Positions 9,076-50,518 of a stretch of 64,000 nt of DNA are shown here, one piece after another. The DNA is taken from contig NZ_CP034463.1 in assembly GCF_003955715.1 (NCBI RefSeq), positions 2,604,001 through 2,668,000 on the forward strand. The letters are read 5' to 3'. The notes beneath the pieces are model-generated. The model saw only the letters and a list, made by a program, of their open reading frames with translations, did no database searches and had not been told where the DNA came from. Numbering within the stretch: the first letter of the stretch is position 1; every line of letters begins with the position of its first letter. Made by a program: the position numbers and the translations under genes. The stretch comes from Streptomyces aquilus. Its GTDB lineage: Bacteria > Actinomycetota > Actinomycetes > Streptomycetales > Streptomycetaceae.

Positions 9076-11697
9076 ATGAGTGCGTCCACGCACGTCGAGA
9101 CCACGAAGTACGGCGCGAAGCTGCCATGGGGAGACATCCTGCTGACCGCGATCGTCGCCGTGAGCTGGGCGTTGATCGGCATGGCCGGTGTCGCGGCGCT
9201 CGGGCTGCATCTGCTGGGCGCGGACGCGACGGCCTCGCTGGGCCCGATGACCGCGGCGGTGGTGGCGCTTGGGGCGGGTGGTTCGGTGACGCCGTCGGGC
9301 GATGTGTCCGCATTCGGACTGACCGGCGCGGAGGCGGCGACCGCCATCGAGATCACGCCACTGGGGGTGAGCCTGGTCGGCGCGCTCCTTTTGTCATGGT
9401 TCTTCCTACGGTCCCTGCGGTCGGCGGGAGTTGTGATCGCACCGGGCGAACTCCTCGCGCGCGCGGGCGCGGTGGTCGTCCTCTTCGTGGCCACGCTGGG
9501 TGGGCTGGCCTGGGCGGGGCACGACGTCATCACGATCGACGGCGGCGCGCTCGGGCTCGACAAGCTGCCCGGTGGCGGGGGCGGGGGCGGGGGCGGCGGC
9601 CTGAAGATCCCCGGGCTCGGTGACGTCGGGGACATCGGAGGGCTGCTGCCGGACAAGATCGGCAACCTGGTCGACGCGAAGGCGGCGGTCGGCTTCACGG
9701 TGGACACGGTGCCGACGCTGCTGGGCGGGCTGGGCTGGTCGGCGGGCATCCTGCTGATCGCCCTGCTGGCGTCCCGCCGTACGCCGTTGCCGCGCGGCTG
9801 GGAAGCCCTGCACCGGATGGTCCGCCCAGCGGTGTCGGCCCTCGTCACCGTGCTGCTGGTCGCGGTCGCGGCGGGGCTCGCGGCGGCGGCGTACGCGGCG
9901 ATCGGCGACGGCCACCCGAAGCGGATCGCGGGCGCGGCCCTGCTGGGCACGCCCAACGGCACCTGGCTGGGCATCCCGATCGGCCTGTTCGTCCCGTGGG
10001 ACGGCCGCGCGACGGGCCCCCTGACCGCTTTCCTCCCCGCCCCCCTGGACGACCTGCTCAGCTCCGAACGCGACGAGTCCGTCTCCCTCTCCCGCCTCGC
10101 CGAACTCGACGGCCGGGTCTGGCTGTTGGCGGTCGCGGCGGCCGTGATGATGCTGCTGGCGGGGGTTCTGGCGGCGGTGCGGACGCCGGTCGGGGTGGTG
10201 GTGAAGGAAGCGGCTGCGGGTTCGGGCGCGGATGCCTCGTACGTACGTGATCCGGGCGCCCTCGGCTTCGCCGGGCGCTGTGCGCTGCGGTTGGGCTTGG
10301 TGACGGCGTTGGCGCTGCCGTTGCTGGCCTGGCTGACGGAGGTGTCTGTGGACGCCTCGCTGTCGGTCCTGGGCTTCGACGCGTTCGGCGCCGGCATCGA
10401 ACTCCACGGCCACCTCGGCATGGCCCTGCTCCTGGGCGCCCTGTGGGGCGCGGGCGCGGGCGCAGCGGGGGCCTTGCTGGCCAGGGCGACGGGGGCGGCT
10501 GGGCAGCGGGCGGCTGCGTTGGCACTGGGTGACTTGGCGGGGGTTGCGGGGGGTTCGGGGGGCGGGGGTGGCGCTGGGGTCCCGTGGGATTCGGGCGGTG
10601 GGGGTGGCTCTGGGGTCACGGTGGGTTCGGGCAGTGGGCCGGGGGCGTATGCCGGGCAGTCGGGGGGTGGGCCGCAGGGGGCCGGATCTTGGGCTGGGCC
10701 GCAGGGGGGCGGCTCCTGGGCTGGGCCGTATGCGGGTGAGGGCGGAGTCTCGGGGGTGAGCGGCGGCGCCGGGGCGGTGGGGGCCGGTGCGGGTGGGGCG
10801 TGGTCGCGTGAGGGGGAGGCGGGGGCGTGGCCGCGTGAAGGTCAGGCCGAGCCTTGGTCGCGTGAAGGCGAGGCCGCGCCTTATGCCGGTAAGGGCGGGG
10901 CGCGGTCGCGCGGAGATGAGGCCGGGCCGTACGCCGGTGAAGGCGGGGCCGGGCCGTACGCCGGTGAAGGCGGGGCTGCGCCCGCGGGTCAGGGTGGGGG
11001 TTCGCATCCGGGGTGGGGTGGGGCTTCGGGTTCTGGCGCGGGTCGGGGGGCGGCTTCCGGGGCGGGGTCGGGTGAGGCCTCGGCTTCTGGGGCGGGGCAG
11101 GGCGGAGCCTCCGGGGAGGCTGGGCCGTATGTGCCGGGTACGCCGTCGTATCGGCCGCCGAATCCCGACACCAATCCGTACCTGCGCGTACCGGAGGAGC
11201 TGCGAGGCCCGGAGGACGCACGGCCGCCCGACGCGCGGGGAGCAGGTGTGGCCGACGCCCCGCCAGGAGGGTCGCGGCCGCCATACAGCTCACCGCCCGG
11301 AGCCTCACAACCCCAGCACGGCTCACCACCCGAAGCCTCGCAACCCCACTACGGCTCACCACCCGAAGGCTCACGACCGCAGTACGGCTCACCGCCCGGA
11401 CGGGGACGCCCCCGTCCCGGCGAGCCCGGCGGTGACGCCGGTCAGCCTGGCGGGTGGGCCGGTGACCGGGGGCAGGCCGGTGGTCGGCCCGATGACTCGC
11501 GCAGGTCCGACGACGGGAACCCTGGCGACGAGTCGCCCCCCGCCGGGGACGACGTGTACGGCGCGCCCACCATGGTGCGGCCGATGCAGCCGCCGCCCTC
11601 GCGGAAACCGCCGTCGGCGCCCGGTGAGGGGGCACCGCCGCCGCCTCCGCCGCCCCCGCCTCCTCCCCCGCCCGGCAGGCCCAAGGGGCGGAGGTGA
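9076..11697 (+). CDS. Large membrane protein with repetitive Gly/Pro-rich tail (streptophobe-type)
   Basis: This 873-residue protein starts at the ATG at 9076, chosen for the GGGGGG before it. The first half (about 1-500) holds around eight hydrophobic segments, for example LTAIVAVSWALIGMAGVAAL and VLLVAVAAGLAAAAYAAI, with a run of glycines (about 165-174) in an external or cytosolic loop. The second half (about 505-873) has no membrane span. It is a low-complexity tail rich in Gly, Ala, Ser and later Pro, with degenerate repeats such as AGPYAGEGG and YGSPPE, a polyproline run near the end and a basic tip GRPKGRR. The layout resembles proteins annotated as the streptophobe family; the function is unknown. 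It is divergent from the FHA-ABC transporter, so a shared promoter region and role are possible. Confidence 0.8.
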   Translation: MSASTHVETTKYGAKLPWGDILLTAIVAVSWALIGMAGVAALGLHLLGADATASLGPMTAAVVALGAGGSVTPSGDVSAFGLTGAEAATAIEITPLGVSLVGALLLSWFFLRSLRSAGVVIAPGELLARAGAVVVLFVATLGGLAWAGHDVITIDGGALGLDKLPGGGGGGGGGGLKIPGLGDVGDIGGLLPDKIGNLVDAKAAVGFTVDTVPTLLGGLGWSAGILLIALLASRRTPLPRGWEALHRMVRPAVSALVTVLLVAVAAGLAAAAYAAIGDGHPKRIAGAALLGTPNGTWLGIPIGLFVPWDGRATGPLTAFLPAPLDDLLSSERDESVSLSRLAELDGRVWLLAVAAAVMMLLAGVLAAVRTPVGVVVKEAAAGSGADASYVRDPGALGFAGRCALRLGLVTALALPLLAWLTEVSVDASLSVLGFDAFGAGIELHGHLGMALLLGALWGAGAGAAGALLARATGAAGQRAAALALGDLAGVAGGSGGGGGAGVPWDSGGGGGSGVTVGSGSGPGAYAGQSGGGPQGAGSWAGPQGGGSWAGPYAGEGGVSGVSGGAGAVGAGAGGAWSREGEAGAWPREGQAEPWSREGEAAPYAGKGGARSRGDEAGPYAGEGGAGPYAGEGGAAPAGQGGGSHPGWGGASGSGAGRGAASGAGSGEASASGAGQGGASGEAGPYVPGTPSYRPPNPDTNPYLRVPEELRGPEDARPPDARGAGVADAPPGGSRPPYSSPPGASQPQHGSPPEASQPHYGSPPEGSRPQYGSPPGRGRPRPGEPGGDAGQPGGWAGDRGQAGGRPDDSRRSDDGNPGDESPPAGDDVYGAPTMVRPMQPPPSRKPPSAPGEGAPPPPPPPPPPPPPGRPKGRR
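10921..10974 (+). repeat. 27-base in-frame tandem repeat
   Basis: Two identical 27-base units (10921-10947 and 10948-10974) encode AGPYAGEGG twice within the low-complexity tail of the membrane protein. Degenerate copies (PYAGKGG, PYAGEGGVSG) lie nearby, which suggests growth by slippage while keeping the reading frame. Confidence 0.85.
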
Positions 11698-37589: not shown

Positions 37590-38816
37590 TCACCAGACGC
37601 GTACCGACGCCCCCTTCGCGAACGCCGGGCTGGTCGCGTCCGCCGGCGGCTCGCCCAGCGGCTCGGCGATCTCCTCCACCGTCGGTCCCACCTTCGCCGC
37701 GATCGGGTCGAGGAGGTCGAGGTCGAAGCCGTACACGCGCGCGGCGTTGCCGCCGATCATCGCCGCGACCTCGTCGCGTGGCACGCGCGCGTAGGCGTTG
37801 CGCAGACCTTCGCGCGTGTACGGGTAGGTGCCCTCGTCGTGGGGGTAGTCGCTGCCCCACATGATCTTGTCGACGCCGATCCGGTCCCGCAGCGGCACCT
37901 CGTGCGGGCGCATGAAGCTGGCGCCGACGAAGCAGTTGTCGCGCCAGACCTGTGAGGGCGCGGCGCCCATGCGGGCGGCGAGTCCGGCGCCGAACTTGGA
38001 CTCCGCGGTGGAGGCCCTCGTCGCCGCCGCGACCAGGCGACCGTGGTAGTAGTCCAGCATCTCCAGCACGCCGGGTATCCAGCCCGAGCCCTGTTCGGTG
38101 AGGACCAGCCTCAGCTCCGGGTGGCGTCGGAAGGCGCCTCCGAAGACGAGGTGCCACAGCGCGCGGTGCGAGAACCAGGTCGTCTCGACCATGAAGACCG
38201 CGCGGGCGGCCGGTTCGTCGCCGAGCGGCGGGGACGCCGATCCCGCGTGGTGGTTGACGGGGACGCCGAGTTCCGCGCAGACCGCCCAGAGCGGGTCGTA
38301 CGCCGACGAGTACAGCTCGGGCAGGCCCGAGCCCGGCGGGGTGCCGGGGAGCAGGAGGCCGCCCTTCAGGCCCGCTTCGGCGGCCGACCGGACCTCCTTG
38401 ACGGCCTCCTCGACGTCGTTGAGGAGGATCTGGAAGACACCCGCGCGGCGACCGGGCGCGGCGGTGCAGAAGTCCGCGAGCCAGCGGTTGTGGGCGCGCA
38501 GACCGGCCCAGCGGCGCTCGAAGTCCTCCGCGGTGGGCGCGGGCGCCATGAGCGAGCCCGACGGGAAGAACGGCGGGACCGTGTTCGGGAACACCACCTC
38601 CGCGACGATCCCGTCCGCCTCCAGCTCCGCGAGCCGCCGCTCGGAGTTCCAGTTCCGGTCGGCGGTGTCGGCCAGCAGGTCCTCGTACGGGTTGACGTAT
38701 GTCGCCGCCCACGCGTCGAACTCGTCGTGGTACCGCTTCTCCAGGTAGGGCCGGTAGTCGAGCAGGTCGGCGCCCGCGTGGCAGTCGGCCGAGATCACCG
38801 TGTAGCGGTCGGTCAT
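37590..38816 (-). CDS. Amidohydrolase 2 family protein (second of pair)
   Basis: This TIM-barrel amidohydrolase-2 enzyme has 408 residues. It begins YTVISADCHAGAD with the metal-binding D/H near the N-terminus. Further metal-ligand blocks are VNHHAGSASP, FRRHPELRLVLTEQGSGW and IMWGSDYPHDEGTYPYT. Family members decarboxylate or hydrolyse carboxylate substrates, for example ACMSD. The ATG at 38816 overlaps the stop of the paralogue upstream. It is the last gene of the putative catabolic operon. Confidence 0.9.
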   Translation of the reverse strand: MTDRYTVISADCHAGADLLDYRPYLEKRYHDEFDAWAATYVNPYEDLLADTADRNWNSERRLAELEADGIVAEVVFPNTVPPFFPSGSLMAPAPTAEDFERRWAGLRAHNRWLADFCTAAPGRRAGVFQILLNDVEEAVKEVRSAAEAGLKGGLLLPGTPPGSGLPELYSSAYDPLWAVCAELGVPVNHHAGSASPPLGDEPAARAVFMVETTWFSHRALWHLVFGGAFRRHPELRLVLTEQGSGWIPGVLEMLDYYHGRLVAAATRASTAESKFGAGLAARMGAAPSQVWRDNCFVGASFMRPHEVPLRDRIGVDKIMWGSDYPHDEGTYPYTREGLRNAYARVPRDEVAAMIGGNAARVYGFDLDLLDPIAAKVGPTVEEIAEPLGEPPADATSPAFAKGASVRVW

Positions 38817-40096
38817 GAGGATGCCCCCAGGACAGGGAAGTCGTGGTCGGTCAGCCAGTGCCGGCCCACCTCGCGCGAGCGCGCCCAGGACGCCTCCACG
38901 GCCGTCTGGTCGGCACTCTGGCCGAGGTCGGCGGGGGTGGGGCCGATGCGGTGGGCGAGCGGGGTCAACTTCCGGACGTCGAAGCCGAAGGCGTCGGCCG
39001 CGGCGAGGCCCAGCATGCGGCGGGTCTCCGCGACCGGGATGTCGTGGAAGGTGCGCCGCAGCCACGCGCGCGTGTCGGGCCAGGTGCCCTCGGGGTGCGG
39101 GAAGTCGCTGCCCCACAGGATGTTGTCGACGCCGATCTCGTAACGCTGGGCGAGTTCGCGGCGCTTGGTGTTGGTGGCGCAGACGAAGACCTGCCGGTCG
39201 AGGTACTCGTGCGGCGGGCGCTTCAGTTCCTGGAACGGGGAGAGCTTCTTGCCGCCGTGCGCGCCGAGGTAGAGGCGGTCCATGAACCACAGCAGGTTCG
39301 GCAGCCACCAGCAGCCCGACTCCGCGACACCGAACCTGAGCCCGGGGTGGCGTTCGAAGACGCCGGACCAGAGCAGGAACCACAGCGGCCGGGCGGGCCA
39401 CCAGGTCACCTCGCTGACGTAGATGCCCAGGTGGTCGCCGTACTCGTGGCGCGGGGCCGCTCCCGAGTGGGTGAGCACCGGCATCGCGCACTCGGCGGCC
39501 GCCGCCCACACCGGGTCGTAACGGCGGTCGTGGTACGGCTCCTTGTCGACCCACATGGACGGGATCATCAGGGCGCCGAGGCCGGACTCCTTGGCGCGGT
39601 ACACCTCGGCGACGACCCGCTCGGTCGGGGCCGTGACCGGCAACAGGGCGACCCCGCAGTGCCGTTCGGGGTGTTCGGACACGAAGTCGGCCAGCCAGCG
39701 GTTGTGCGCCTGCGCGCCGGCCATGCCCAGCTCCGGGTCCTGGTCGCCGGAGAGCCCGAGGCCCACCCCGAAGGGCGCCGCCGTCTGGCTGTCGACCGCG
39801 TCGGCGTCCGGGAAGACGACCTCGGCGGCCACCCCGTCGCCGTCCAGCTCCTTGAGCCGCTGCGCGGTGTCCCAACCGCCGCGCAGACCCTCCTCGTTGT
39901 CCTGGAACCACTTGGTCGCGAACGCCTCGTTGCGGATGCCGAGCCGGGTCATCTCCTCCCGCCGCCGCTCGCGCCCGGCGAGGAAGTCGTCGAAGTCCCG
40001 GTGGAAACGGGCGTCCAGATAGGGCCGGTACTCCTCGGTGGGCAGCCCGGCGTGGCAGTCGGAGGAGATGATCAGATAGGGCTCCTGGTCGGTCAC
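38813..40096 (-). CDS. Amidohydrolase 2 family protein (first of pair)
   Basis: This 427-residue protein starts at GTG 40096 with GAGGGGG upstream. It has the same architecture as its downstream neighbour: YLIISSDCHAGLPTEEYRPYLD at the N-terminus, PVLTHSGAAP, RHPGLRFGVAESGCWWLPNLLW and ILWGSDFPHPEGTWPDT. The two share many aligned blocks and are surely paralogues, which could form a heteromer or act on successive intermediates. Four-base overlap with the second copy. Confidence 0.9.
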   Translation of the reverse strand: MTDQEPYLIISSDCHAGLPTEEYRPYLDARFHRDFDDFLAGRERRREEMTRLGIRNEAFATKWFQDNEEGLRGGWDTAQRLKELDGDGVAAEVVFPDADAVDSQTAAPFGVGLGLSGDQDPELGMAGAQAHNRWLADFVSEHPERHCGVALLPVTAPTERVVAEVYRAKESGLGALMIPSMWVDKEPYHDRRYDPVWAAAAECAMPVLTHSGAAPRHEYGDHLGIYVSEVTWWPARPLWFLLWSGVFERHPGLRFGVAESGCWWLPNLLWFMDRLYLGAHGGKKLSPFQELKRPPHEYLDRQVFVCATNTKRRELAQRYEIGVDNILWGSDFPHPEGTWPDTRAWLRRTFHDIPVAETRRMLGLAAADAFGFDVRKLTPLAHRIGPTPADLGQSADQTAVEASWARSREVGRHWLTDHDFPVLGASS

Positions 40097-40106
40097 GTCG
40101 ACCCCC

Positions 40107-40991
40107 TCAGTCGAGAATGAAGTTCTCCAGGTACGCCGGGTTCGCGCGGTCCAGCATCGACCGGGCACGCGCGCGTATCTGCGCGTCGCTGTGCTCGCTC
40201 GGCGGCAGCATCCAGAAGCGGTCCGCGCGGATGCCGTCGACGACGGTCTCGGCGACCTCCTCGACCGGCGTGAAGCGCACCTCCCGGCCCGCTTCCCTCA
40301 TCGCGGCCTCCCATTGGTCGAGGCTGCGGTACGGCGTCCTGCGGGGCCGCTCCTTGGCGTACCGCTCGGGGCGGTTGCGGTGCGACTCCCACAGGCCGGT
40401 GCGGAGCATGTGCGGTCCCGGGAAGAGCACCGAGGCGCCCACGCGCGCGTGCTCGGCCTTCAGATGGGCGTACAGGGACTCGGTCATCGTCACCACGGCC
40501 GCCTTGGTGACGGCGTAGACGGAGGCGGTGGGGAGCGGGGCGATGCCGCCGTCACCGGAGGATGTATTGACCACATGACCGGGTTGACCCGACTTGATCA
40601 TGTGGGGAACGAATGCCTGGACACCATGGAAGACGCCCCACACATTGACGGAGAACGCCCACTTCCAGTCGTTCGGTTCGTGCTCCCACATCCGGCCCTC
40701 GGCGCCCGAACCCACCCCGGCGTTGTTGCACAGCACATGGACGGCGCCGTACGTCTCGTAGGCGAAGTCGGCCAGCTCCATTACCTGTTCGCGCTCGCCG
40801 ACGTCCACCACGCGCGCGTGCACGTCGGCCCCGTCCGCGCGGAGCGCCGTGACGGCCGCGTCCAGCGCCGGTCGCTCGACGTCGGCGAGGACGACCTTCA
40901 GCCCCTCGGCGGCGAACCGGCGGGCCATCGCGAGACCGACACCGCTCGCGGCACCGGTGACGACGGCGACCTGACCCGGAAGAAGATCCAT
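40107..40991 (-). CDS. Short-chain dehydrogenase/reductase
   Basis: This 294-residue SDR has GAASGVG for nucleotide binding (13-19), NNAG in the middle, and a serine in NTSSGDGG followed by YAVTK as the catalytic Tyr-Lys pair. About 60 extra C-terminal residues (RTPYRSLDQWEAAMREAGREVRF...) beyond the classical fold are typical of actinobacterial degradative SDRs. The A of its ATG is shared with the stop of the decarboxylase-like gene (TGATG), so it is coupled. Its substrate probably belongs to the same pathway as the amidohydrolases. Confidence 0.92.
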   Translation of the reverse strand: MDLLPGQVAVVTGAASGVGLAMARRFAAEGLKVVLADVERPALDAAVTALRADGADVHARVVDVGEREQVMELADFAYETYGAVHVLCNNAGVGSGAEGRMWEHEPNDWKWAFSVNVWGVFHGVQAFVPHMIKSGQPGHVVNTSSGDGGIAPLPTASVYAVTKAAVVTMTESLYAHLKAEHARVGASVLFPGPHMLRTGLWESHRNRPERYAKERPRRTPYRSLDQWEAAMREAGREVRFTPVEEVAETVVDGIRADRFWMLPPSEHSDAQIRARARSMLDRANPAYLENFILD

Positions 40992-41788
40992 CAGGTGCTC
41001 CCCTCGGGCGGGCCGTCCAGCACCTGGGCCGGATCGTCGTAGCGCTGATGGACGTACGGCAGCAACGCCCGCGCGTCCACCCGTTCGACGACCTTGCCGC
41101 GCTGGTCGCTGGTCTTCTCGCCGATGGTGATCTCCACCAGCCTGCGCACCGGCAGGTCGGCCACCGGGTCGTACATCGACTCGCGCAGCACGACGTCGCC
41201 GGTGATCCGCTCCAGGCGGCGCACCTTCTCGTTGCGCAGACAGTGCACGAGGACCGGGTCGCCGTCGAAGCCCGAACCGTCCACCGCGGGAAGGAACTTG
41301 AAGTAGAAGTCCGTCTTCTGGGCGGGCTCCGGCAGCGGCAGCGCACCGGCGACCGCGCCGCGCACCTCCACGAAGGCGATGCCGTGCCGGGCGAGGAAGG
41401 CACGGACGACCAGGCCCTCACGCTCCACGACGACCTCGCCGAGCTTCTTGGGCTCGCCGAACACCTCGCGGCCGCCGATCAGGGCGCGCTCGTGGGTCAT
41501 CGGCATGACCAGGGGGTACCAGCCGTCGACGCCGTCATGGGCCGCCGCGACCGCGAACGAGCCCGCGCCGAGCGGGTATCCGGGCAGGTCGACCTTGCTG
41601 ATGTTGACCCGGGCCAGCGGCCGGGCCGAGGGCTTCAGGGGCGGCGGCAGGACCGCCGCGACCGCGTCCGGGTCGGTCTCCCAGACGGCCACCACCCCGG
41701 TGGACCAGATGTCGGGAAGCCGCGCGCTCGCGGTGCGCGCGGCGGCGATCTCCGCCTCGGTCCGCGCGCCGTACCGTACGCGTGCCAT
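40991..41788 (-). CDS. Acetoacetate decarboxylase family protein
   Basis: This 265-residue protein of the ADC superfamily has the Schiff-base lysine region kept as VFGEPKKLG (K114/K115), with MPMTHERALIGGREV before it and the core PLARVNISKVDLPGYPLGAGSFA. True ADC makes acetone and CO2 from acetoacetate; relatives act as aldolase-dehydratases or hydrolases on larger keto acids. It is the first gene of the operon and starts at the ATG at 41788, with AAGGG upstream. A perfect palindrome 33 bases before it is probably the operator. Confidence 0.88.
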   Translation of the reverse strand: MARVRYGARTEAEIAAARTASARLPDIWSTGVVAVWETDPDAVAAVLPPPLKPSARPLARVNISKVDLPGYPLGAGSFAVAAAHDGVDGWYPLVMPMTHERALIGGREVFGEPKKLGEVVVEREGLVVRAFLARHGIAFVEVRGAVAGALPLPEPAQKTDFYFKFLPAVDGSGFDGDPVLVHCLRNEKVRRLERITGDVVLRESMYDPVADLPVRRLVEITIGEKTSDQRGKVVERVDARALLPYVHQRYDDPAQVLDGPPEGST

Positions 41789-41820
41789 GCCGTACCGCCC
41801 TTCTTCTGATGGGCCGTCAC

Positions 41821-41837
41821 CTGTAACACAGTTACAG
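41821..41837. promoter_or_regulatory. 17-base operator palindrome for the TetR regulator
   Basis: CTGTAAC-ACA-GTTACAG is a perfect 7-base inverted repeat with a 3-base spacer in the 100-base region between the divergent ADC-like (-) and TetR (+) genes. TGTAAC...GTTACA half sites are typical of TetR-family operators that overlap promoters in actinobacteria. Confidence 0.8.
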
Positions 41838-41888
41838 CAGACCCTCCGCGGGGTAAATACGCGTGCACGCACGGGACTTGGGGGCACC

Positions 41889-42524
41889 ATGGCGAGAGCG
41901 TCGCTCACCAGGGACGACGTCCTGGACACGGCCGCGAACCTGGTGAAGCAGCACGGCCCCGAGGCGCTGACGATGCGCAAGCTCGCCGCCGAGCTGGGCA
42001 CCGCCGTCACCTCGATCTACTGGCACGTCGGCAACCGCGAGTCCCTGCTGGACGCCCTCGTACGGCGGACCGTGGCCGAGCTCGGCGAGATCAGGCCCGC
42101 CGGGCGCACCCCGGCCGAGCGGGTCGTGTCCGTGGCCCGCATCCTGCGCCGGCGGCTGCGCGAGCATCCGCATCTCGTCGCGATGGTCCACGAACGCGGC
42201 CTGACCGAGCGGATGTTCCTGCCCGCGCAGCAGGCGCTGGTGCGCGAGGTGCACGCGGCCGGGCTGCGGGGTGCCCGCGCGGCGGAGGCGGTGCGGGCCG
42301 TGCAGTTCCAGGTCGTGGGCTTCGTCCTCGTGGAGCGCAATCGTGAACGGGCGCCCGCGCAGCAGCCCACCGAGGACCGCTACGACGACCCCGCGCTCGC
42401 CCGCGCCTTCGCCCGTCCCGTCGACGAGGAACGGCTGTTCGTGAGGTCCGTACGCGCCCTCACGCAGTCGCTGCTCGACGGCGAGGAAGCCGCACGGAAG
42501 CAAGAAGAATCCGCCCGGAAATAA
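41889..42524 (+). CDS. TetR-family transcriptional regulator
   Basis: This 211-residue regulator has a helix-turn-helix (about 5-50) in LTRDDVLDTAANLVKQHGPEALTMRKLAAELGTAVTSIYWHVGNRESLLDALV. The C-terminal domain is a TetR_C-like ligand pocket (about 60-200). The start at 41889 has GGGGG upstream. It most likely represses the divergent ADC-SDR-amidohydrolase operon and itself through the palindrome at 41821-41837 and responds to a pathway intermediate. Confidence 0.93.
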   Translation: MARASLTRDDVLDTAANLVKQHGPEALTMRKLAAELGTAVTSIYWHVGNRESLLDALVRRTVAELGEIRPAGRTPAERVVSVARILRRRLREHPHLVAMVHERGLTERMFLPAQQALVREVHAAGLRGARAAEAVRAVQFQVVGFVLVERNRERAPAQQPTEDRYDDPALARAFARPVDEERLFVRSVRALTQSLLDGEEAARKQEESARK

Positions 42525-42681
42525 ATGGGTGGCGCCCGCCGCCACCGTCCTCCTACAGTCGTGATCGCGGGGACGGCTCCGCCGCGTGCTTCCTTCTCTC
42601 TTTCCTATGACAACGACAGCGCGCCCACTCTCCGTCCCCGCCTCTGAGACTTCTCTCCACCTTCCCCCAGGGGGCCTCCGC

Positions 42682-45510
42682 TTGTCCGTACTGTCGTCCG
42701 TGCTGCTCCGCCGCCTCCGTACCGTCTACGTCGACCAGGCCGGGCCGCGCCCGGGCGACCCGTCGACGGCGCCAGGGCTCGTCGCGCTCGAAGCCGAGCT
42801 GCTGGACCGGGGATTCGCGCCGACGGCGGAGCTGCACGCGGCGCTCGCCTGGCTGGGGCCCGCCGGGCTCGCGGACGCGGGCAAGCAGCTCGTCCGGCAC
42901 ATCGACGCCGAACTGGGCGCGGACCGCACCCACATGCCGATGTTCCGCAGCTTCCCGGCCTCGGTTCCTGACGACACCTTCCAGCTGTTCGTCGACCGGG
43001 TCTTCACGCTGTTGCTCCAGTGGCCGAAGCAGCCGTGCGTGCTGTGCGGCACGGTCGGCAGCGTGCACCCCGTGTCCCCGTGCGCGCATCTGGTGTGCCG
43101 GGAGTGCTGGGACGGCGCGGACTACGCGGGCTGCCCGATCTGCCACCGCCGGATCGACCGCGACGACCCCTTCCTGAAGCCCGCTCCACCGCTTCACGCG
43201 CGTGAAGTCGCCGTGGGCCCGCTGAAGTTGCTCGCGCTCGGCAAGGACTCCCGGGCGGACGCGGTGCGGGCGCTGCTGCGGCTGCTGGCCCGGCGGACCC
43301 CGCTGCCGCCGCAGGACCGCGACGACGTGAAGATCCTGCTGGCGCACGCACCGGCCGACCTGGGCTGGTTCCCCCAGGACATCCCGGTGCGCCAGACCAA
43401 GGCGCTGGCCCTCGGCATGCTGCTGCTCGACCGGCACACGCGCGTGACGGCCACCGAGCTGCTCGACACGCAGCTGACGACCGCGACGGACGTACTGCGG
43501 CTGCTGTGCGTGTGGTCCGGCGGCGACGGGGACCTGCTGAAGCCGCCGCGCATGCGCTCGGTCCCGCGCGCGCTGCGGCGCCGGCTGCTCGGCATCCTCG
43601 ACGGGCTGGCGATGCCGTCACTGGTCGAGGACGTGCTGCGGCACCCGGGCGCCTGGAAGCGCGCTGCCGAGATCCTGCACCCGTACGAGCAGCACGCGCG
43701 CCACCCGAAGGCCGCGCTCGCCTTCGCGGTCCTGCGCGCCACGGACGTCTCCGAGGGCGCCCTCGGCGAGGCGCTGCTGCGAACGGCCGCGGAGCATCCC
43801 GACGCGGTACGGGTGACACGGTGCGATGCGGCGGGGACGGCCGCGGAACAGACCGCAGAAGCGGGGGCGGCGGGCGGCGAACACACCGCCAGCGCGCAGA
43901 CGGCCACGGAACAGACCGCCACTGCACGGACCGCCGCAGCGGGGACGGGCGCTGAGCAGACCGTCGGCGCGCGGACGGCCACGGAACAACCCGCCCCAGC
44001 AGGAGCGGGGACGGGCGCTGAGCAGACCGTCGGCGCGCGGACGGTCGGCATCCGTGTCAAGCCCGCCACCTGGGCGGCACGCGTCGAACAGGCGCTACAG
44101 GAAGGCGACTTCGAGGCCGCCCTCGACCTGCTCGCCCAGCGCCCCGGCGAGCTGCTGCGCCGCCTCGACCATCTGCTGCGGCTGCGCGAACTCGACGTGC
44201 TGCCGCAGGAGCTCGGCGACGTACTGCGCCGGGTGCTGCCCAAGGCCGGCCCCGGGCCGCTGCTCGCCGTGCTCGGGCGGATGCGCATCCGCCATCTCCC
44301 GGGCGGGCGGCGGGTGTTCTTCCCGCGCGGTCAGGTGACGCACTCGTTCACGATCGACGACACGCGCGTGCCGCTGTCGCCGAAGGTGACGGACGCGGTC
44401 TGCGACCTGCTGGAGGCGGAGGCACTGCGACGCCTCGGCCGGCATGACGCGCCCCGTCTCGACCTGTCCGTGCTCGACTCGGCGCTCACCGGCCTCGCGG
44501 TGCCCGCCGCCGAGACCGCCGCCAGCAAGGCCCTCGTCACCGTCCCGCGCGGCAGCACGCAACCCCTGCCCGAGGGCCAGGTGCTGCGGCTCTTCCTGCA
44601 CTGGATGGAGCCCGCCAAGCAGCGCGTGGACCTGGACCTGTCGGTGGCGATGTACGACGCCGAGTGGAACTTCGCGGGCCTGTGCGACTACACGAACCTC
44701 GTCCATGAGGGCCGCTCGGCCGTCCACTCCGGCGACCTGGTGTCGGCGCCCGCGCCGGACGGGGCGACCGAGTACGTGGACCTCGACCTGGCCGCACTCG
44801 CGGAACGCGGTGTGCGCTACGCCCTGCCGGTCGTCTTCAGCTTCAACGACATCGCGTTCGACGAGCTCCTGGACGCCTTCGCCGGCTTCATGGCGCTGCC
44901 TTCCGCGGCCGAGGAGGACCGGAACGCGTCGTACGACCCGCGTACGGTCCGTCAGCGCTACGACCTGGTGGGCGACTCGCGCATCCACGTCCCGATGCTG
45001 GTCGACCTCGACCGCCGTACGTTCCTGTGGACCGATCTCCACCTCCCGGCCGACGAGGGCTTCCACAGCCTGTACCGGCACGGCGCCGACCTCGGCCGGG
45101 TCGCCCAGGACCTGCACCAGTACTTCGCGTCGGGCCGAACGACCCTGTGGGACCTGGCGGTGTGGCGGGCGGCCGCGCGCGGCGACGAGGTCGCGGTGAT
45201 ACGGCGCGCACCGCATCCGCGCGCCGTGGACGAACTGTGGCGCTACCGGCGGCACGAAGGAGAGGCGGACACCGCGTTCGCCGCGCGCGTGCGCGACCTC
45301 GAACCGCCCCAGGCGCGGCAACCCTCCGAGACGGCCGACGCCCTCGCGGGTGAAGCCGCGTCACACCGGCACGTGTTCCTCGCGCTCGTGCACGGGGGCG
45401 TGGCACCGGCGGGCGCGACCGGGTCGGCGTACCGGCTGCTGCCGGGGCCGGTCGACGGCTGCGGGCTCGAAGCGCTGGCGGCGGGGGATCTGGTGGCGGC
45501 GCTGGGCTGA
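42682..45510 (+). CDS. RING-finger and TerD-like domain protein (MXAN_6230/SCO0854 family)
   Basis: This large cytosolic protein has about 942 residues. I chose TTG 42682 because GGGGG precedes it and the codons upstream lack GC bias; ATG 42607 is an alternative. Residues 119-154 form a full C3HC4 RING pattern: C119, C122, C134, H136, C139, C142, C151, C154. Alpha-helical repeats follow (about 165-400), then a low-complexity Ala/Thr/Gly/Glu linker (about 405-455) and a further helical region. From about 640 to 740 there is a TerD-like domain (VDLDLSVAMYDAEW, GRSAVHSGDLVSAP, ATEYVDLDLAAL). RING domains bind zinc and in eukaryotes recruit E2 enzymes; TerD domains bind calcium in stress systems. 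I recall the family name but no known function. Confidence 0.87.
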   Translation: MSVLSSVLLRRLRTVYVDQAGPRPGDPSTAPGLVALEAELLDRGFAPTAELHAALAWLGPAGLADAGKQLVRHIDAELGADRTHMPMFRSFPASVPDDTFQLFVDRVFTLLLQWPKQPCVLCGTVGSVHPVSPCAHLVCRECWDGADYAGCPICHRRIDRDDPFLKPAPPLHAREVAVGPLKLLALGKDSRADAVRALLRLLARRTPLPPQDRDDVKILLAHAPADLGWFPQDIPVRQTKALALGMLLLDRHTRVTATELLDTQLTTATDVLRLLCVWSGGDGDLLKPPRMRSVPRALRRRLLGILDGLAMPSLVEDVLRHPGAWKRAAEILHPYEQHARHPKAALAFAVLRATDVSEGALGEALLRTAAEHPDAVRVTRCDAAGTAAEQTAEAGAAGGEHTASAQTATEQTATARTAAAGTGAEQTVGARTATEQPAPAGAGTGAEQTVGARTVGIRVKPATWAARVEQALQEGDFEAALDLLAQRPGELLRRLDHLLRLRELDVLPQELGDVLRRVLPKAGPGPLLAVLGRMRIRHLPGGRRVFFPRGQVTHSFTIDDTRVPLSPKVTDAVCDLLEAEALRRLGRHDAPRLDLSVLDSALTGLAVPAAETAASKALVTVPRGSTQPLPEGQVLRLFLHWMEPAKQRVDLDLSVAMYDAEWNFAGLCDYTNLVHEGRSAVHSGDLVSAPAPDGATEYVDLDLAALAERGVRYALPVVFSFNDIAFDELLDAFAGFMALPSAAEEDRNASYDPRTVRQRYDLVGDSRIHVPMLVDLDRRTFLWTDLHLPADEGFHSLYRHGADLGRVAQDLHQYFASGRTTLWDLAVWRAAARGDEVAVIRRAPHPRAVDELWRYRRHEGEADTAFAARVRDLEPPQARQPSETADALAGEAASHRHVFLALVHGGVAPAGATGSAYRLLPGPVDGCGLEALAAGDLVAALG
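43941..44044 (+). repeat. 38-base direct repeat in the RING-TerD gene
   Basis: An identical 38-base segment occurs at 43941-43978 and 44007-44044 (66-base period). Both encode GTGAEQTVGART in the low-complexity linker. Degenerate AEQTA/TEQTA units surround it. Confidence 0.85.
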
Positions 45511-45615
45511 GGATTCGAGGCCCGCTGGAAGAGCACTGAAGTGCCCGGCACCGGAACAGGGTTGCGGGGCGGGTGGGCGCGGGACTGTCAGTGGGGGCCC
45601 GTATCCTCAGGGACC

Positions 45616-46635
45616 ATGCTCGAAGACCGTACCGCCGAAGCGTCCTCCCCCACCCAGTGGCCGGCCGCGTATCCGAAGGGATACGCGGTCGTTGACGTGG
45701 AGACCACGGGACTGGCCCGCGACGACCGGATAATCTCCGCGGCCGTCTACCGGCTGGACGCGCGCGGTGAGGTCGAGGACCACTGGTACACGCTGGTCAA
45801 CCCGGAGCGCGACCCGGGCCCGGTGTGGATCCATGGTCTGACGAGCGACGTGCTGGAGGGCGCGCCCCTGTTCCAGGACATCGCCGAGGAGTTCTCGGCG
45901 AGGCTGGAGGGCCGGGTGCTCGTCGCGCACAACGCGGTCTTCGACTGGCAGATGATCGCCCGGGAGTACGCGCGCGCGGAGCGCGAGGCGCCGGTGCGGC
46001 AGCGGCTGTGCACCATCGCGCTGTCCAAGGAGCTGGCGCTGCCGCTGCCCAACCACAAGCTGGAGTCGCTGGCCGCCCACTTCGGCGTCGTCCAGCAGCG
46101 TGCGCACCACGCGCTCGACGACGCGCGCGTGCTGGCGGAGGCGTTCCGGCCGAGCCTCCGGGCGGCGGCCTCGCGGAGCATCCGGCTGCCGTTGCACGAG
46201 TGCCGGCCGCTGACGGAGTGGACGGACCGGGCGGTGCCCCGGCAGCAGGGCAGTAGCGGCGGCGTTGGCGGTGGCGGTGGGTACGGCGGCTACAGCAGCT
46301 ATCGGCCGACCAGTTGGCGCCCGGCACGCAAAAGGCCCGCATGCCCCTATCCCAACCCGGGGCGTTACGAAGAGGGCAAACCGCTCAAGCAGGGCATGCG
46401 GGTCGCGTTCTCCGGGGACACCTCGACCGAGCGCGACCTGCTGGAGGACCGCGCGATCGAGGCCGGGCTGCACGTCGCCACAAGCATCTCCCGCCTGACC
46501 AGCCTCCTCGTCACCAACGACCCCGACTCGGGCACGTCGAAGGTCGTCAAGGCCCGGCAGTACGGCACCCCGGTCGTCGACGAGGCGGCGTTCGGCCAAC
46601 TCCTGGGGAACGTGGCACCGGCGTCGGAAGGCTGA
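45616..46635 (+). CDS. DEDDh 3'-5' exonuclease with C-terminal BRCT domain
   Basis: This 339-residue protein has an N-terminal DnaQ-like exonuclease (about 20-180) with catalytic D27 and E29 (VVDVETTGL), D110 (HNAVFDWQM), H164 and D169 (HHALDDAR). A glycine/serine/tyrosine-rich linker (about 215-240) connects to a BRCT domain (about 258-335: GMRVAFSGDTSTERDLLEDRAIEAGLHVATSIS...SLLVTNDPDSGTSKVVKARQYGTPVVDE). The combination suits DNA repair or proofreading at damaged ends. It lies 105 bases downstream of the RING-TerD gene on the same strand. The last codons and stop sit inside a 36-base tandem repeat. Confidence 0.92.
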   Translation: MLEDRTAEASSPTQWPAAYPKGYAVVDVETTGLARDDRIISAAVYRLDARGEVEDHWYTLVNPERDPGPVWIHGLTSDVLEGAPLFQDIAEEFSARLEGRVLVAHNAVFDWQMIAREYARAEREAPVRQRLCTIALSKELALPLPNHKLESLAAHFGVVQQRAHHALDDARVLAEAFRPSLRAAASRSIRLPLHECRPLTEWTDRAVPRQQGSSGGVGGGGGYGGYSSYRPTSWRPARKRPACPYPNPGRYEEGKPLKQGMRVAFSGDTSTERDLLEDRAIEAGLHVATSISRLTSLLVTNDPDSGTSKVVKARQYGTPVVDEAAFGQLLGNVAPASEG

Positions 46636-46719
46636 CCGTACGCACGCGTGGCACCGGCGTCGGAAAACTGATCGCACGCACGCGTGGCACCGGCGTCGGA
46701 GAGACGACCGTACGGACGG
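46612..46719 (+). repeat. Three 36-base tandem repeats starting inside the exonuclease gene
   Basis: Units at 46612-46647, 46648-46683 and 46684-46719 each begin GTGGCACCGGCGTCGGA. The first carries the real stop codon (46633-46635), the second also reads VAPASEN then stop, and the third is open. The array is therefore a copied gene end. Confidence 0.9.
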
Positions 46720-46786
46720 GTGATTGCGCCGCGACTCGCCCGCCGCCCGCTCGCCCGCGCCGTACGGACAGCTCACCCTGTGGCGC

Positions 46787-47020
46787 ATGGCGACTTGCGA
46801 AGTTTGCGGCAACAACTACGGCATGACCTTCGAGGTGCACGCCCAGGGCGCGGTCCACGTCTTCGACTGCTTCTCCTGCGCGATCCACCGCATGGCCCCG
46901 ATCTGCGAGCACTGCCGGGTCCAGATCATCGGCCAGGGCGTCGAGGTCGAGGGCCACTGGTTCTGCGGGGCGCACTGCGCCCGCGCGGAGGGGAAGGTGG
47001 GCATCGTCGACCGGGTCTGA
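46787..47020 (+). CDS. Small zinc-ribbon / metallothionein-like protein
   Basis: This 77-residue protein is rich in metal ligands: CEVC at the start, then FDCFSCAIH, CEHC, and HWFCGAHC. These nine cysteines and several histidines could bind two or three zinc ions. The sequence type (MATCEVCGNNYGMTFEVHAQG...) recalls short actinobacterial metallothionein-family proteins. The ATG at 46787 has no strong ribosome binding site. Its role may be zinc storage or a regulatory zinc ribbon. Confidence 0.8.
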   Translation: MATCEVCGNNYGMTFEVHAQGAVHVFDCFSCAIHRMAPICEHCRVQIIGQGVEVEGHWFCGAHCARAEGKVGIVDRV

Positions 47021-47089
47021 CCACCGGGTCGACCGGATCCGGCACACCCCTGTGCGAACACCCCACGGCCCGAGTTGTACCGTCGTGGG

Positions 47090-47896
47090 GTGTACCGCTT
47101 CCTGTTGTCCCGGCAGTGGGTGATCCTCACGCTGGTCGCCCTCCTTCTCATCCCCACGATGATCAGGCTGGGCATCTGGCAGATGCACCGCTACGACGAG
47201 CGCACCGCCCGCAACCAGCTGGTCTCCGACGCGCTGGACGCGAAGCCGGTGCCCGTGGAGACGCTGACGTCCCCGGGGCACACCGTGACCAGCAAGGAGC
47301 GGTACCACTCGGTGACCGCGAAGGGTCGGTTCGACACCGACCACGAGGTCGTCGTCCGCCGCCGCACCAACTCCGACGACGAGGTCGGCTACCACGTCCT
47401 GACCCCGTTCGTCCTGAACGACGGCAAGGTGCTGCTGGTCAACCGGGGCTGGATCGCAGCGGACGGCCCGAGCCAGACCGCGTTCCCGAAGATCCCCGCT
47501 CCCCCGCGCGGCGAGATCACGGTCACCGGGCGGCTGATGCCCGACGAGACGACCGAGGCGAGCGGCATCAAGGACCTCAAGGGCCTGCCCGACCGCCAGA
47601 TCATGCTGATCAACAGCGCGCAGGAGGCGAAGCGGCTCGGCGCCGACGTCCTCGGCGGCTACATCGCCCAGACCGCGCCCGAGCCCAAGGGCGACATCCC
47701 GGAGCTGATGGGCAGCAAGCCCGGCATGGAGAACGCCGCGCTGAACTTCGCGTACGCCTACCAGTGGTGGCTGTTCGCCGCGGCCGTGCCGATCGGCTGG
47801 GTCGTGCTGGTGCGGCGCGAGACGCGGGACCGCCGGGAGAAGGCGGAGAAGGAGTCGGGCGCGGAGTCGGAGGAGACGGAACCGGCCGCGGTCTGA
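47090..47896 (+). CDS. SURF1-family cytochrome oxidase assembly protein
   Basis: This protein of about 268 residues has two membrane spans (about 8-28 and 230-250) around an extracytoplasmic domain. SURF1 motifs are WVILTLVALLLIPTMIRLGIWQMHRYDER near the N-terminus, VLLVNRGWIAADG in the middle and FAYAYQWWLFAAAVPIGWVVLVRRE near the end. SURF1 helps insert heme into cytochrome c oxidase. A TTG at 47075 and GTG at 47090 are possible starts; GTG gives the usual length. The C-terminus is acidic. Confidence 0.92.
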   Translation: MYRFLLSRQWVILTLVALLLIPTMIRLGIWQMHRYDERTARNQLVSDALDAKPVPVETLTSPGHTVTSKERYHSVTAKGRFDTDHEVVVRRRTNSDDEVGYHVLTPFVLNDGKVLLVNRGWIAADGPSQTAFPKIPAPPRGEITVTGRLMPDETTEASGIKDLKGLPDRQIMLINSAQEAKRLGADVLGGYIAQTAPEPKGDIPELMGSKPGMENAALNFAYAYQWWLFAAAVPIGWVVLVRRETRDRREKAEKESGAESEETEPAAV

Positions 47897-47969
47897 GGCC
47901 GGCCGTTCGAAATCACTCGGGCGGCTCCACCCCGGATTGTCCTGCCACCCCTCCGGGAACCCGCATCCC

Positions 47970-49757
47970 GTGCACCCCCGTATCGAGGACTACGCCCTCA
48001 TCGGCGACGAACAGACGGCGGCCCTGGTCGGCAAGGACGGCAGCGTCGACTGGCTGTGCCTGCCCCGCTTCGACTCGGCCGCCTGCTTCGCCCGGCTGCT
48101 CGGCGACGAGGAGAACGGACACTGGCGCATCGCGCCCCGCGACGGCCCGGACCGGTGCGCCCGCCGCGCCTACCGTCCCGGCACCCTCGTGCTGGACACC
48201 GACTGGGAGACCGACACCGGCTCGGTGCGGGTCACCGACCTGATGCCCCAGCGCGACCGCGCCCCCGACCTCGTACGCGTCATCGAGGGCCTCAGCGGCG
48301 AGGTCACCGTCCGCAGCACGCTCCGGCTGCGTTTCGACTACGGCTCGATCATGCCGTGGATGCGCAGGACCGACGGGCACCGGGTCGCCGTCGCCGGCCC
48401 GGACTCGGTGTGGCTGCGCAGCGAACCCGAGGTGCGCACCTGGGGCGAGGACTTCTGCACGCACTCGGAGTTCACCGTCAAGAAGGGCGAGAAGGTGTCG
48501 TTCGTCCTCACCTGGCACCCCTCGCACGAGCCGCGCCCGCCGCAGACCGACCCGCTCGACGCCCTGCGCGCCAGCGTCGAGGACTGGCAGGCGTGGTCGG
48601 ACCGCTGCCGCTACGACGGCCCCTACAAGGACATCGTCCTGCGCTCCCTGATCACGCTCAAGGCCCTCACCTACGCCCCGACCGGCGGCATCGTCGCCGC
48701 GGCCACCACCTCGCTGCCGGAGGAGCTGGGCGGCGTACGCAACTGGGACTACCGGTACTGCTGGCTGCGCGACTCCACGCTCACCCTCGGCGCGCTGCTG
48801 TCGGCGGGGTACCACGAGGAGGCCGAGGCCTGGCGCGACTGGCTGCTGCGCGCGGTCGCGGGCGATCCGGCGGACCTTCAGATCATGTACGGCGTCGCGG
48901 GCGAGCGGCGGCTGCCCGAGTTCGAACTGCCGTGGCTCACCGGCTTCCACGGCTCGGCGCCGGTACGGATCGGCAACGAGGCCGTGAAACAGCTCCAGCT
49001 GGACGTGTACGGCGAGGTCATGGACTCCCTCTCGCTGGCCCGGAGTTCGGGGCTGTCCACCAAGCCGCACATCTGGTCCCTCCAGTGCGCCCTGATGGAT
49101 TTCCTGCGCGGAGCGTGGCGGCAGCCCGACGAAGGGCTGTGGGAGGTGCGCGGCGGGCGCCGTCAGTTCGTCCACTCCAAGGTGATGGTGTGGGTGGCCG
49201 CCGACCGGGCCGTCCGCGCCCTGGAGGACAACCCCGTGCTGCACGGCGACCTCGACGGCTGGCGGAAGATGCGCGACGAGGTGCACCGCGAGGTGTGCGA
49301 GAAGGGCTTCGACGCCGAGCGCAACACCTTCACCCAGGCTTACGGTTCGAGCGAGCTCGACGCCTCCCTGCTCCTCATCCCCCGGGTCGGCTTCCTGCCG
49401 CCCGACGATCCGCGCGTGATCGGCACCGTCGACGCGATCCGCGAGGAGCTGGGCCACGGCGGCTTCCTGCGCCGGTACAGCACCGACGGCACGACGGTCG
49501 ACGGGCTGCCGGGCGACGAGGGCACGTTCCTGGTCTGCTCGTTCTGGCTGGCGGACGCCCTGCACATGACGGGCCGCACGAAGGAGGCCCGTGAGCTGTT
49601 CGAGCGACTCGTGGGGCTGGCCAACGACGTGGGGCTGCTGTCCGAGGAGTACGACCCGGCGCACGACTGCCACCTCGGCAACTTCCCGCAGGCGTTCAGC
49701 CACATCGGACTGGTGAACACCGCCCTCGCCCTGTTCGGGGACGAGGAGGCAGGATAG
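47970..49757 (+). CDS. Glycoside hydrolase family 15 protein
   Basis: This 595-residue cytosolic enzyme of the bacterial GH15 type starts RIEDYALIGDEQTAALVGKDGSVDWLCLPRFDSAACFARLLG, the signature of trehalase/glucoamylase-like proteins. A beta-rich N-terminal domain (about 1-215) precedes the (alpha/alpha)6 barrel, which includes LGGVRNWDYRYCWLRDSTLTLGALL and ends GFLPPDDPRVIGTVDAI...GLLSEEYDPAHDCHLGNFPQAFSHIGLVN, where the second catalytic acid lies. Mycobacterial relatives hydrolyse trehalose. The start is GTG 47970. It is followed six bases later by an SDR gene. Confidence 0.93.
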   Translation: MHPRIEDYALIGDEQTAALVGKDGSVDWLCLPRFDSAACFARLLGDEENGHWRIAPRDGPDRCARRAYRPGTLVLDTDWETDTGSVRVTDLMPQRDRAPDLVRVIEGLSGEVTVRSTLRLRFDYGSIMPWMRRTDGHRVAVAGPDSVWLRSEPEVRTWGEDFCTHSEFTVKKGEKVSFVLTWHPSHEPRPPQTDPLDALRASVEDWQAWSDRCRYDGPYKDIVLRSLITLKALTYAPTGGIVAAATTSLPEELGGVRNWDYRYCWLRDSTLTLGALLSAGYHEEAEAWRDWLLRAVAGDPADLQIMYGVAGERRLPEFELPWLTGFHGSAPVRIGNEAVKQLQLDVYGEVMDSLSLARSSGLSTKPHIWSLQCALMDFLRGAWRQPDEGLWEVRGGRRQFVHSKVMVWVAADRAVRALEDNPVLHGDLDGWRKMRDEVHREVCEKGFDAERNTFTQAYGSSELDASLLLIPRVGFLPPDDPRVIGTVDAIREELGHGGFLRRYSTDGTTVDGLPGDEGTFLVCSFWLADALHMTGRTKEARELFERLVGLANDVGLLSEEYDPAHDCHLGNFPQAFSHIGLVNTALALFGDEEAG

Positions 49758-49762
49758 GGGCC

Positions 49763-50518
49763 ATGGATCTTGGACTGAAGGACCGGGTGTACGTCGTCAC
49801 CGGGGCCACCCGCGGTCTCGGCAACGCGTCCGCGCGCGAGCTGGTCGCCGACGGGGCGAAGGTGGTACTGACCGGGCGGGACGAGAAGCGGGTCGCCGAC
49901 GCGGCGGCCGAGCTGGGGCCGAACGCCATCGGGCTGGCCGTCGACAACGCCGACCCGGAGGCTCCGGCCCGCCTGATCGCGGCCGCGCGGGAGAGCTTCG
50001 GCGGCTTCGACGGCATCCTGATCAGCGTGGGCGGGCCGGCGCCGGGCTTCGTCGCGGACAACACGGACGAGCAGTGGACCAGCGCGTTCGAGTCGGTCTT
50101 CCTGGGTGCGGTACGGCTCGCGCGCGCGGCGGCGGAGGAGCTGGAGGCCGGGGGTGTCATCGGGTTCGTGCTGTCGGGCTCGGTGCACGAGCCGATCCCG
50201 GGGCTGACCATCTCCAACGGGCTGCGGCCGGGGCTCGCCGGGTTCGCGAAGTCGATCGCGGACGAGCTGGGGCCGCGCGGGATTCGCGTCGTAGGCCTGC
50301 TGCCGTCGCGTATCGACACGGATCGCGTGCGTGAGCTGGATGGGCTGTCCGCGGATCCGGAGGCCACCCGTGCCGCCAATGAGGCGCGGATTCCGTTGCG
50401 GCGGTACGGGACGCCGGAGGAGTTCGGGCGTACGGCGGCGTTCTTGCTCTCCCCTGCGGCTTCCTATTTGACCGGCATCATGCTGCCTGTTGACGGGGGG
50501 ATGCGGCACGGCTTTTGA
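49763..50518 (+). CDS. SDR-family protein with altered active site
   Basis: This 251-residue SDR fold has GATRGLG (14-20) for cofactor binding and an intact C-terminal AAFLLSPAASYLTGIMLPVDGG. The usual catalytic Y-xxx-K is replaced by the segment ISNGLRPGLAGFAKS after VLSGSVHEPI, so neither the tyrosine nor the lysine is in its normal place. A group of SDRs with the SNxLRxGL pattern is known in databases and may use another proton donor or act as a non-enzymatic sensor. The gene lies six bases after the GH15 gene and is probably coupled. Confidence 0.88.
   Translation: MDLGLKDRVYVVTGATRGLGNASARELVADGAKVVLTGRDEKRVADAAAELGPNAIGLAVDNADPEAPARLIAAARESFGGFDGILISVGGPAPGFVADNTDEQWTSAFESVFLGAVRLARAAAEELEAGGVIGFVLSGSVHEPIPGLTISNGLRPGLAGFAKSIADELGPRGIRVVGLLPSRIDTDRVRELDGLSADPEATRAANEARIPLRRYGTPEEFGRTAAFLLSPAASYLTGIMLPVDGGMRHGF

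Follow-up and report, generated by a model that had tools for sequence, protein, structure and literature searches.

Ro60 is a ring-shaped RNA quality-control protein, and solved Ro60/Rsr proteins of the TROVE family (PDB 9l5y, 9kop, 2nvo, 1yvp) resemble in fold the predicted model of a 942-residue protein encoded by Streptomyces aquilus, which differs from them in carrying a TerD insert and an added RING finger. The RING shares its eight-ligand C3HC4 pattern with Cbl-family and other RING E3 ligases and with Pfam Prok-RING_4; unlike the ligases, the S. aquilus protein has no linked E2 or ubiquitin-like protein (Ubl) that we could find, and its RING is optional in the wider family. The TerD domain is related to TerD itself (PDB 2kxt, 3ibz, 2qz7; the title of 2kxt names Ca2+ binding) and to SAV2460 (2qng), but here it is embedded in a large protein and falls below the Pfam cut-off. 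The family as a whole already has a database name, NF041916, which cites the RING but not the TerD domain, the Ro60-like fold or a function. No description of MXAN_6230/SCO0854 family proteins turned up in the parts of the literature that were searched, and an earlier one may exist. What is probably new is the way the parts are combined: a scaffold resembling Ro60, TerD inserted into it, and a RING that is optional.

The window analysed here is a stretch of 64,000 nucleotides of S. aquilus DNA, and the gene and its parts are collected in Table 1. The start codon of the reading frame is uncertain, with TTG at 42682, GTG at 42586 and GTG at 42700 as the candidates. An NF041916 whole-protein score of 1102.1 bits, against a cut-off of 600, makes the protein a full-length member of the family; PADLOC gave no match for it at E<=1. 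The insert within the helical body is rich in Ala, Thr and Gln and is missing from the 13 other sequences of alignment A1. The product of the downstream gene, named from its sequence, we take to be DEDDh exonuclease-like.

Table 1. Features of the 942-residue protein and the gene downstream, in window positions
Feature	Residues	Position	Strand	Remark
ORF, 942 aa		42682..45510	+	NF041916 'MXAN_6230/SCO0854 family RING domain-containing protein'
C3HC4 RING finger	116-165	43027..43176	+	Pfam PF14447, 5.3e-21
Helical-repeat (HEAT-like) body	187-585	43240..44436	+	Ro60/TROVE-like in predicted model
Insert	391-451	43852..44034	+	low-complexity, pLDDT <50
Strand, proposed vWA-like strand 1	595-599	44464..44478	+	DxSxS metal motif missing
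TerD domain	618-811	44533..45114	+	fold search
C-terminal alpha/beta part	797-942	45070..45507	+	proposed rest of vWA-like domain
DEDDh exonuclease-like gene, downstream		45616..46635	+	next gene in 13/22 Streptomyces RING loci

The initial annotation had given the family name, read residues 119-154 as a full RING consensus and placed a TerD-like domain at about residues 640-740. The name is right, as the family score shows, and both domains are borne out. The RING region matches PF14447. Of 80 loci, 78 have all eight zinc ligands with RING spacing, and two are contig fragments that lack the region; loss of ligands in close homologues, which the annotation had raised against its own reading, is not seen in any of these loci where the region is present. 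The 80 are the best of 178 genome-contig loci found by patterns from the TerD region, so the RING played no part in their selection. Another sample, which includes some of the same genomes, has 22 Streptomyces RING loci, and every one keeps the ligands; two alignments, one of 14 sequences and one of 48, show no variation at any of the eight. Most of the 80 loci come from Streptomyces, with others from Actinacidiphila, Micromonospora, Goodfellowiella, Solirubrobacter, Embleya, genera of the Streptosporangiales, and Myxococcus and its relatives, plus one labelled Deltaproteobacteria and one labelled Comamonas; we take the RING-form loci to belong to the Actinomycetota and Myxococcota. The member on the contig labelled Comamonas sp. 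KCTC 72670 shares neighbours with the Myxococcus loci, and the label may be wrong.

The nearest solved sequence relatives of the RING are those of the Cbl family (E 0.0014 with the single sequence, 2.3e-5 with a profile). In the predicted model the region has strands at residues 116-118, 125-131 and 136-139 and a helix at 140-144, within a block of pLDDT 84-93 (residues 111-170). The fold search used the full-length model, which barely tested the RING region, and RING chains are absent among the matches listed.

The same search recovered the TerD beta-sandwich fold over residues 618-811, and the acidic motifs DLDLS and HSGD are invariant across 14 diverse members. Pfam PF02342 has no match in the protein at E<=1, and among five relatives tested it appeared in one, at 10.8 bits against a cut-off of 25.3. 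The body of the protein, as predicted, probably resembles Ro60, and the structural alignments to Ro60 extend to residues 940-942. No sequence or profile similarity to TROVE proteins was detected for the 942-residue protein, nor any match to Pfam TROVE (PF05731). The vWA metal motif DxSxS is absent from the aligned stretch of 23 sequences; a Streptomyces TROVE protein carries VDRSGSM. There was no Y-RNA-like Rfam match in nine loci or in positions 38000-50000 of the window. In the window's own genome a TerD-domain gene and a genuine TROVE gene are separated by about 3.4 kb (L190:4625-5833, 9233-10747), and in a second genome by about 1 kb.

The RING is clearly not a fixed part of this architecture. 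An alignment of 23 relatives included three sequences of the RING form, and no others in it have the full RING; 12 have no zinc site and two Deinococcus sequences are ambiguous. The remaining six, from Variovorax, Vibrio, Hymenobacter, Segatella, Deinococcus KNUC1210 and phage SCTP-2, have half a zinc site (C-x-H plus C-x2-C, with C-x-C in place of C-x-H in Vibrio and SCTP-2); Hymenobacter and Segatella are both Bacteroidota. All 23 have a TerD-like core that can be made out, although in XacN1 and WXIN it has degenerated. Streptomyces itself offers a second example. NF041916 matched above its cut-off in 24 of 121 sampled genomes, and at least 27 others carry a paralogue of about 723 residues, the B form, which lacks the RING in 21 of 21 aligned sequences and keeps both flanks. 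Two B forms tested against NF041916 scored 340-362 bits, matching over the N-terminal region, body and TerD domain, and databases label related proteins either hypothetical or 'TerD family protein'. One genome has a B form and, at the syntenic position, what is left of the RING gene, running into the exonuclease in a single reading frame (L086:7620-9272). Across the wider family, judged by these alignments, the RING is an optional, dispensable module. None of the 121 genomes holds both forms intact, against 5.4 expected (P 0.001, from 24 genomes with the RING form and at least 27 with the B form). A claim of mutual exclusion was nonetheless dropped, because protein lists name both forms in three Streptomyces: S. 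hiroshimensis (P0071, P0296), NRRL S-237 (P0069, P0256) and NPDC096097 (P0067, P0238).

Relatives also occur in large phages and on plasmids. A Foldseek search of viral models returned four phage proteins, BFVD A0A248SJK3, A0A8S5LVH0, A0A291I9M6 (LpeD) and H6SUA9 (IBB35), at E 1.5e-23 to 9.2e-21, covering most of the model with TM scores of 0.43-0.49 on the query; the first, at 844 residues, equals the SCTP-2 homologue in length. In PHROGs the protein matches phrog_33734, of unknown function, at E 3.2e-42. These phage proteins share the fold over most of the model but mostly lack the RING, which is missing in nine of ten aligned, SCTP-2 with its half site being the tenth. With tblastn at E<=1, the 942-residue query found 12 phage records, the weakest (E 0.05) a plain terD gene, and a RING-less query found 13; an uncultured phage of 485 kb matched the RING-less form with 99% coverage and 46% identity. 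The Variovorax protein found 16 phage records at E<=0.01. Two plasmid searches at E<=0.001 gave 33 and 36 records, some of the 36 matching plain TerD proteins only. On one Deinococcus plasmid the homologue lies near vWA and MoxR genes, and on another near a caspase-family gene and the DISARM gene drmD.

No conserved operon was found around the homologues. Genes at the loci were called by a purpose-written composition script rather than a standard tool, and the neighbour set comprises 149 proteins of 60-900 residues. They are encoded no more than three genes away from the homologue at 30 loci chosen from the 80, one per similarity cluster, with L165, L166 and parts of L163 and L164 left out; L165, examined separately, has RlaP. 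The set spans 222 Pfam families, the commonest in four proteins and 24 in at least two. The exonuclease gene does not adjoin the RING gene in nine of the 22 Streptomyces loci, and its position looks like lineage synteny within part of the genus.

Against this flat background, a minority of RNA-repair neighbours is telling. Two RlaP genes directly follow the Nonomuraea homologue, the first overlapping it by 4 bases. RlaP is next or next but one to the homologue, within a tRNA/tmRNA array, in the related phages RpAliso and RcXuper (counted once), and lies 1.4 kb away in phage XacN1. Phage Weasels2 has tRNAs and RtcB near its homologue, the Variovorax homologue is divergent from a gene group containing rtcR, an RNA ligase lies 3.2 kb from the Vibrio homologue, and RtcB is 3.2 kb away in Actinacidiphila; both RtcB cases could well be due to chance. 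Chance RlaP adjacency is estimated at about 0.04 (80 loci, two flanking genes, two copies in 8000 genes). All told, an RNA-repair protein marker was found at 8 of 143 loci, and at 2 of the 80 genome-contig loci, with queries drawn from these same loci. Co-occurrence of RlaP by genome is uninformative, since 27 of 28 Streptomyces genomes have one to three stretches matching it. Five other downstream genes, from Planobispora, S. nanshensis, Micromonospora, Solirubrobacter and Pyxidicoccus, matched no RNA-repair family. Six of ten phage loci contain tRNAs, compared with none of the nine bacterial loci scanned, and no tRNAs are annotated in two further 49-kb stretches, away from the homologue, of the RcXuper and Weasels2 genomes. 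At three phage loci a tmRNA gene lies 0.6-1 kb upstream of the homologue (L203:3216-3632, L210:2875-3181, L201:808-1108).

The Ro60-like predicted body, taken with the few RNA-repair and tRNA neighbours, points to RNA surveillance or repair over ubiquitin tagging. We tentatively favour, at a little under an even chance, a free-standing Ro60 (Rsr)-like scaffold for RNA surveillance or repair that carries RING and TerD modules. In such a protein a damaged or misfolded small RNA, for instance a tRNA, would sit in the helical-repeat body, itself closed or curved, and the vWA-like C-terminal part would have lost its metal motif and received the TerD domain instead, an insertion suggested by the model. 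Like TerDs already characterised, this TerD domain may respond to Ca2+ or another ligand. The RING would be an extra zinc module to which a partner docks, perhaps so that the protein can dimerise, or so that an E2-like or non-ubiquitin partner can bind.

The main rival, which we hold unlikely, is a Ter-type scaffold for stress or phage response without any role for RNA: TerD would detect Ca2+ or a signal resembling a nucleotide, and the body would serve to build a complex, either beneath the membrane or of proteins. The firm TerD fold in the model argues for it, as do the invariant acidic motifs and the fact that it is the TerD-like core, not the RING, that runs through all 23 aligned relatives. 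One homologue, in Deinococcus, has a TerB gene 1.8 kb away, and jumbo phages are reported to use Ter modules (PMC7824862). However, no Ter family is among the 24 Pfam families found in at least two neighbour proteins, and such a scaffold explains neither the extended match to the Ro60 fold nor the neighbouring RNA-repair genes. Still less probable is a RING that serves solely as a structural zinc knuckle, stabilising or dimerising the scaffold and recruiting nothing. The six relatives that keep one possible zinc site, and the 12 that keep none, are what such a knuckle would lead one to expect, but retention of eight ligands in all 78 loci with the region, across Actinomycetota and Myxococcota, suggests that selection acts on a surface of the RING and not on its fold alone.

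The initial annotation had also offered "a scaffold or a ligase-like stress system", of which the scaffold is plausible and the ligase poorly supported. The search for E2s covered the UQ_con and Prok-E2_B families. Prok-E2_B matched nowhere, controls included, and so gives no information; UQ_con matched in one of 28 Streptomyces genomes, that of the window itself, and in none of 14 controls, the match being confirmed by a domain scan of the operon. This E2 lies about 0.7 Mb from the RING gene in an operon of FtsH-vWA-MoxR type (L168, L169; G000:C1 ~1939878-1954964) with EAD1, YukD-like, UQ_con, ThiF, fvmJAB_N, bpMoxR, fvmX2 and fvmX3, the first three domains forming a Ubl-E2 protein. The operon fits the FtsH ternary systems described in PMC7159879, and no link between it and the RING gene was found in this analysis. 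An E3 ligase with a linked ubiquitin system was accordingly rejected as the best reading. That the RING binds the E2 of a bacterial ubiquitin-like system, with TerD and the repeats selecting targets, is improbable: the full cross-brace ligand set, the Cbl-family relatives, the E1, Ubl-E2 and JAB-type genes in the same genome and what we take to be two marks of E2-binding RINGs, a leucine inside the first pair of cysteines and the proline of CPxC, speak for it, but only one of 18 RING-carrying genomes searched has a UQ_con E2, that one unlinked, the survey of neighbours found no E1, E2 or Ubl family in two or more of the 149 proteins, relatives that retain the remainder of the protein have lost the RING or half of it, and the tryptophan directly after C6 is presumably a departure from usual RING spacing.

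A wider reading, which we consider unlikely, is an unrecognised class of Ro60-like ribonucleoprotein hubs, with a TerD sensor inserted in the vWA-like part and an optional partner-recruiting RING. Such hubs would range over Actinomycetota, Myxococcota, Pseudomonadota, Deinococcota, Bacteroidota, Bacillota and large phages, and would couple the sensing of a conflict signal to the capture and repair of cleaved tRNA. The mostly RING-less phage versions, some beside the phage's own tRNA, tmRNA and RlaP genes, might then help phages survive tRNA-cleaving defences of the host.

Should the RNA scaffold reading hold, a named bacterial RING family without a function would gain a testable job in RNA quality control. 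It would also mean that one protein unites TerD with a Ro60-like scaffold, stress modules otherwise separate, and that a conserved scaffold can gain or lose a zinc RING although no ubiquitin system lies next to it.
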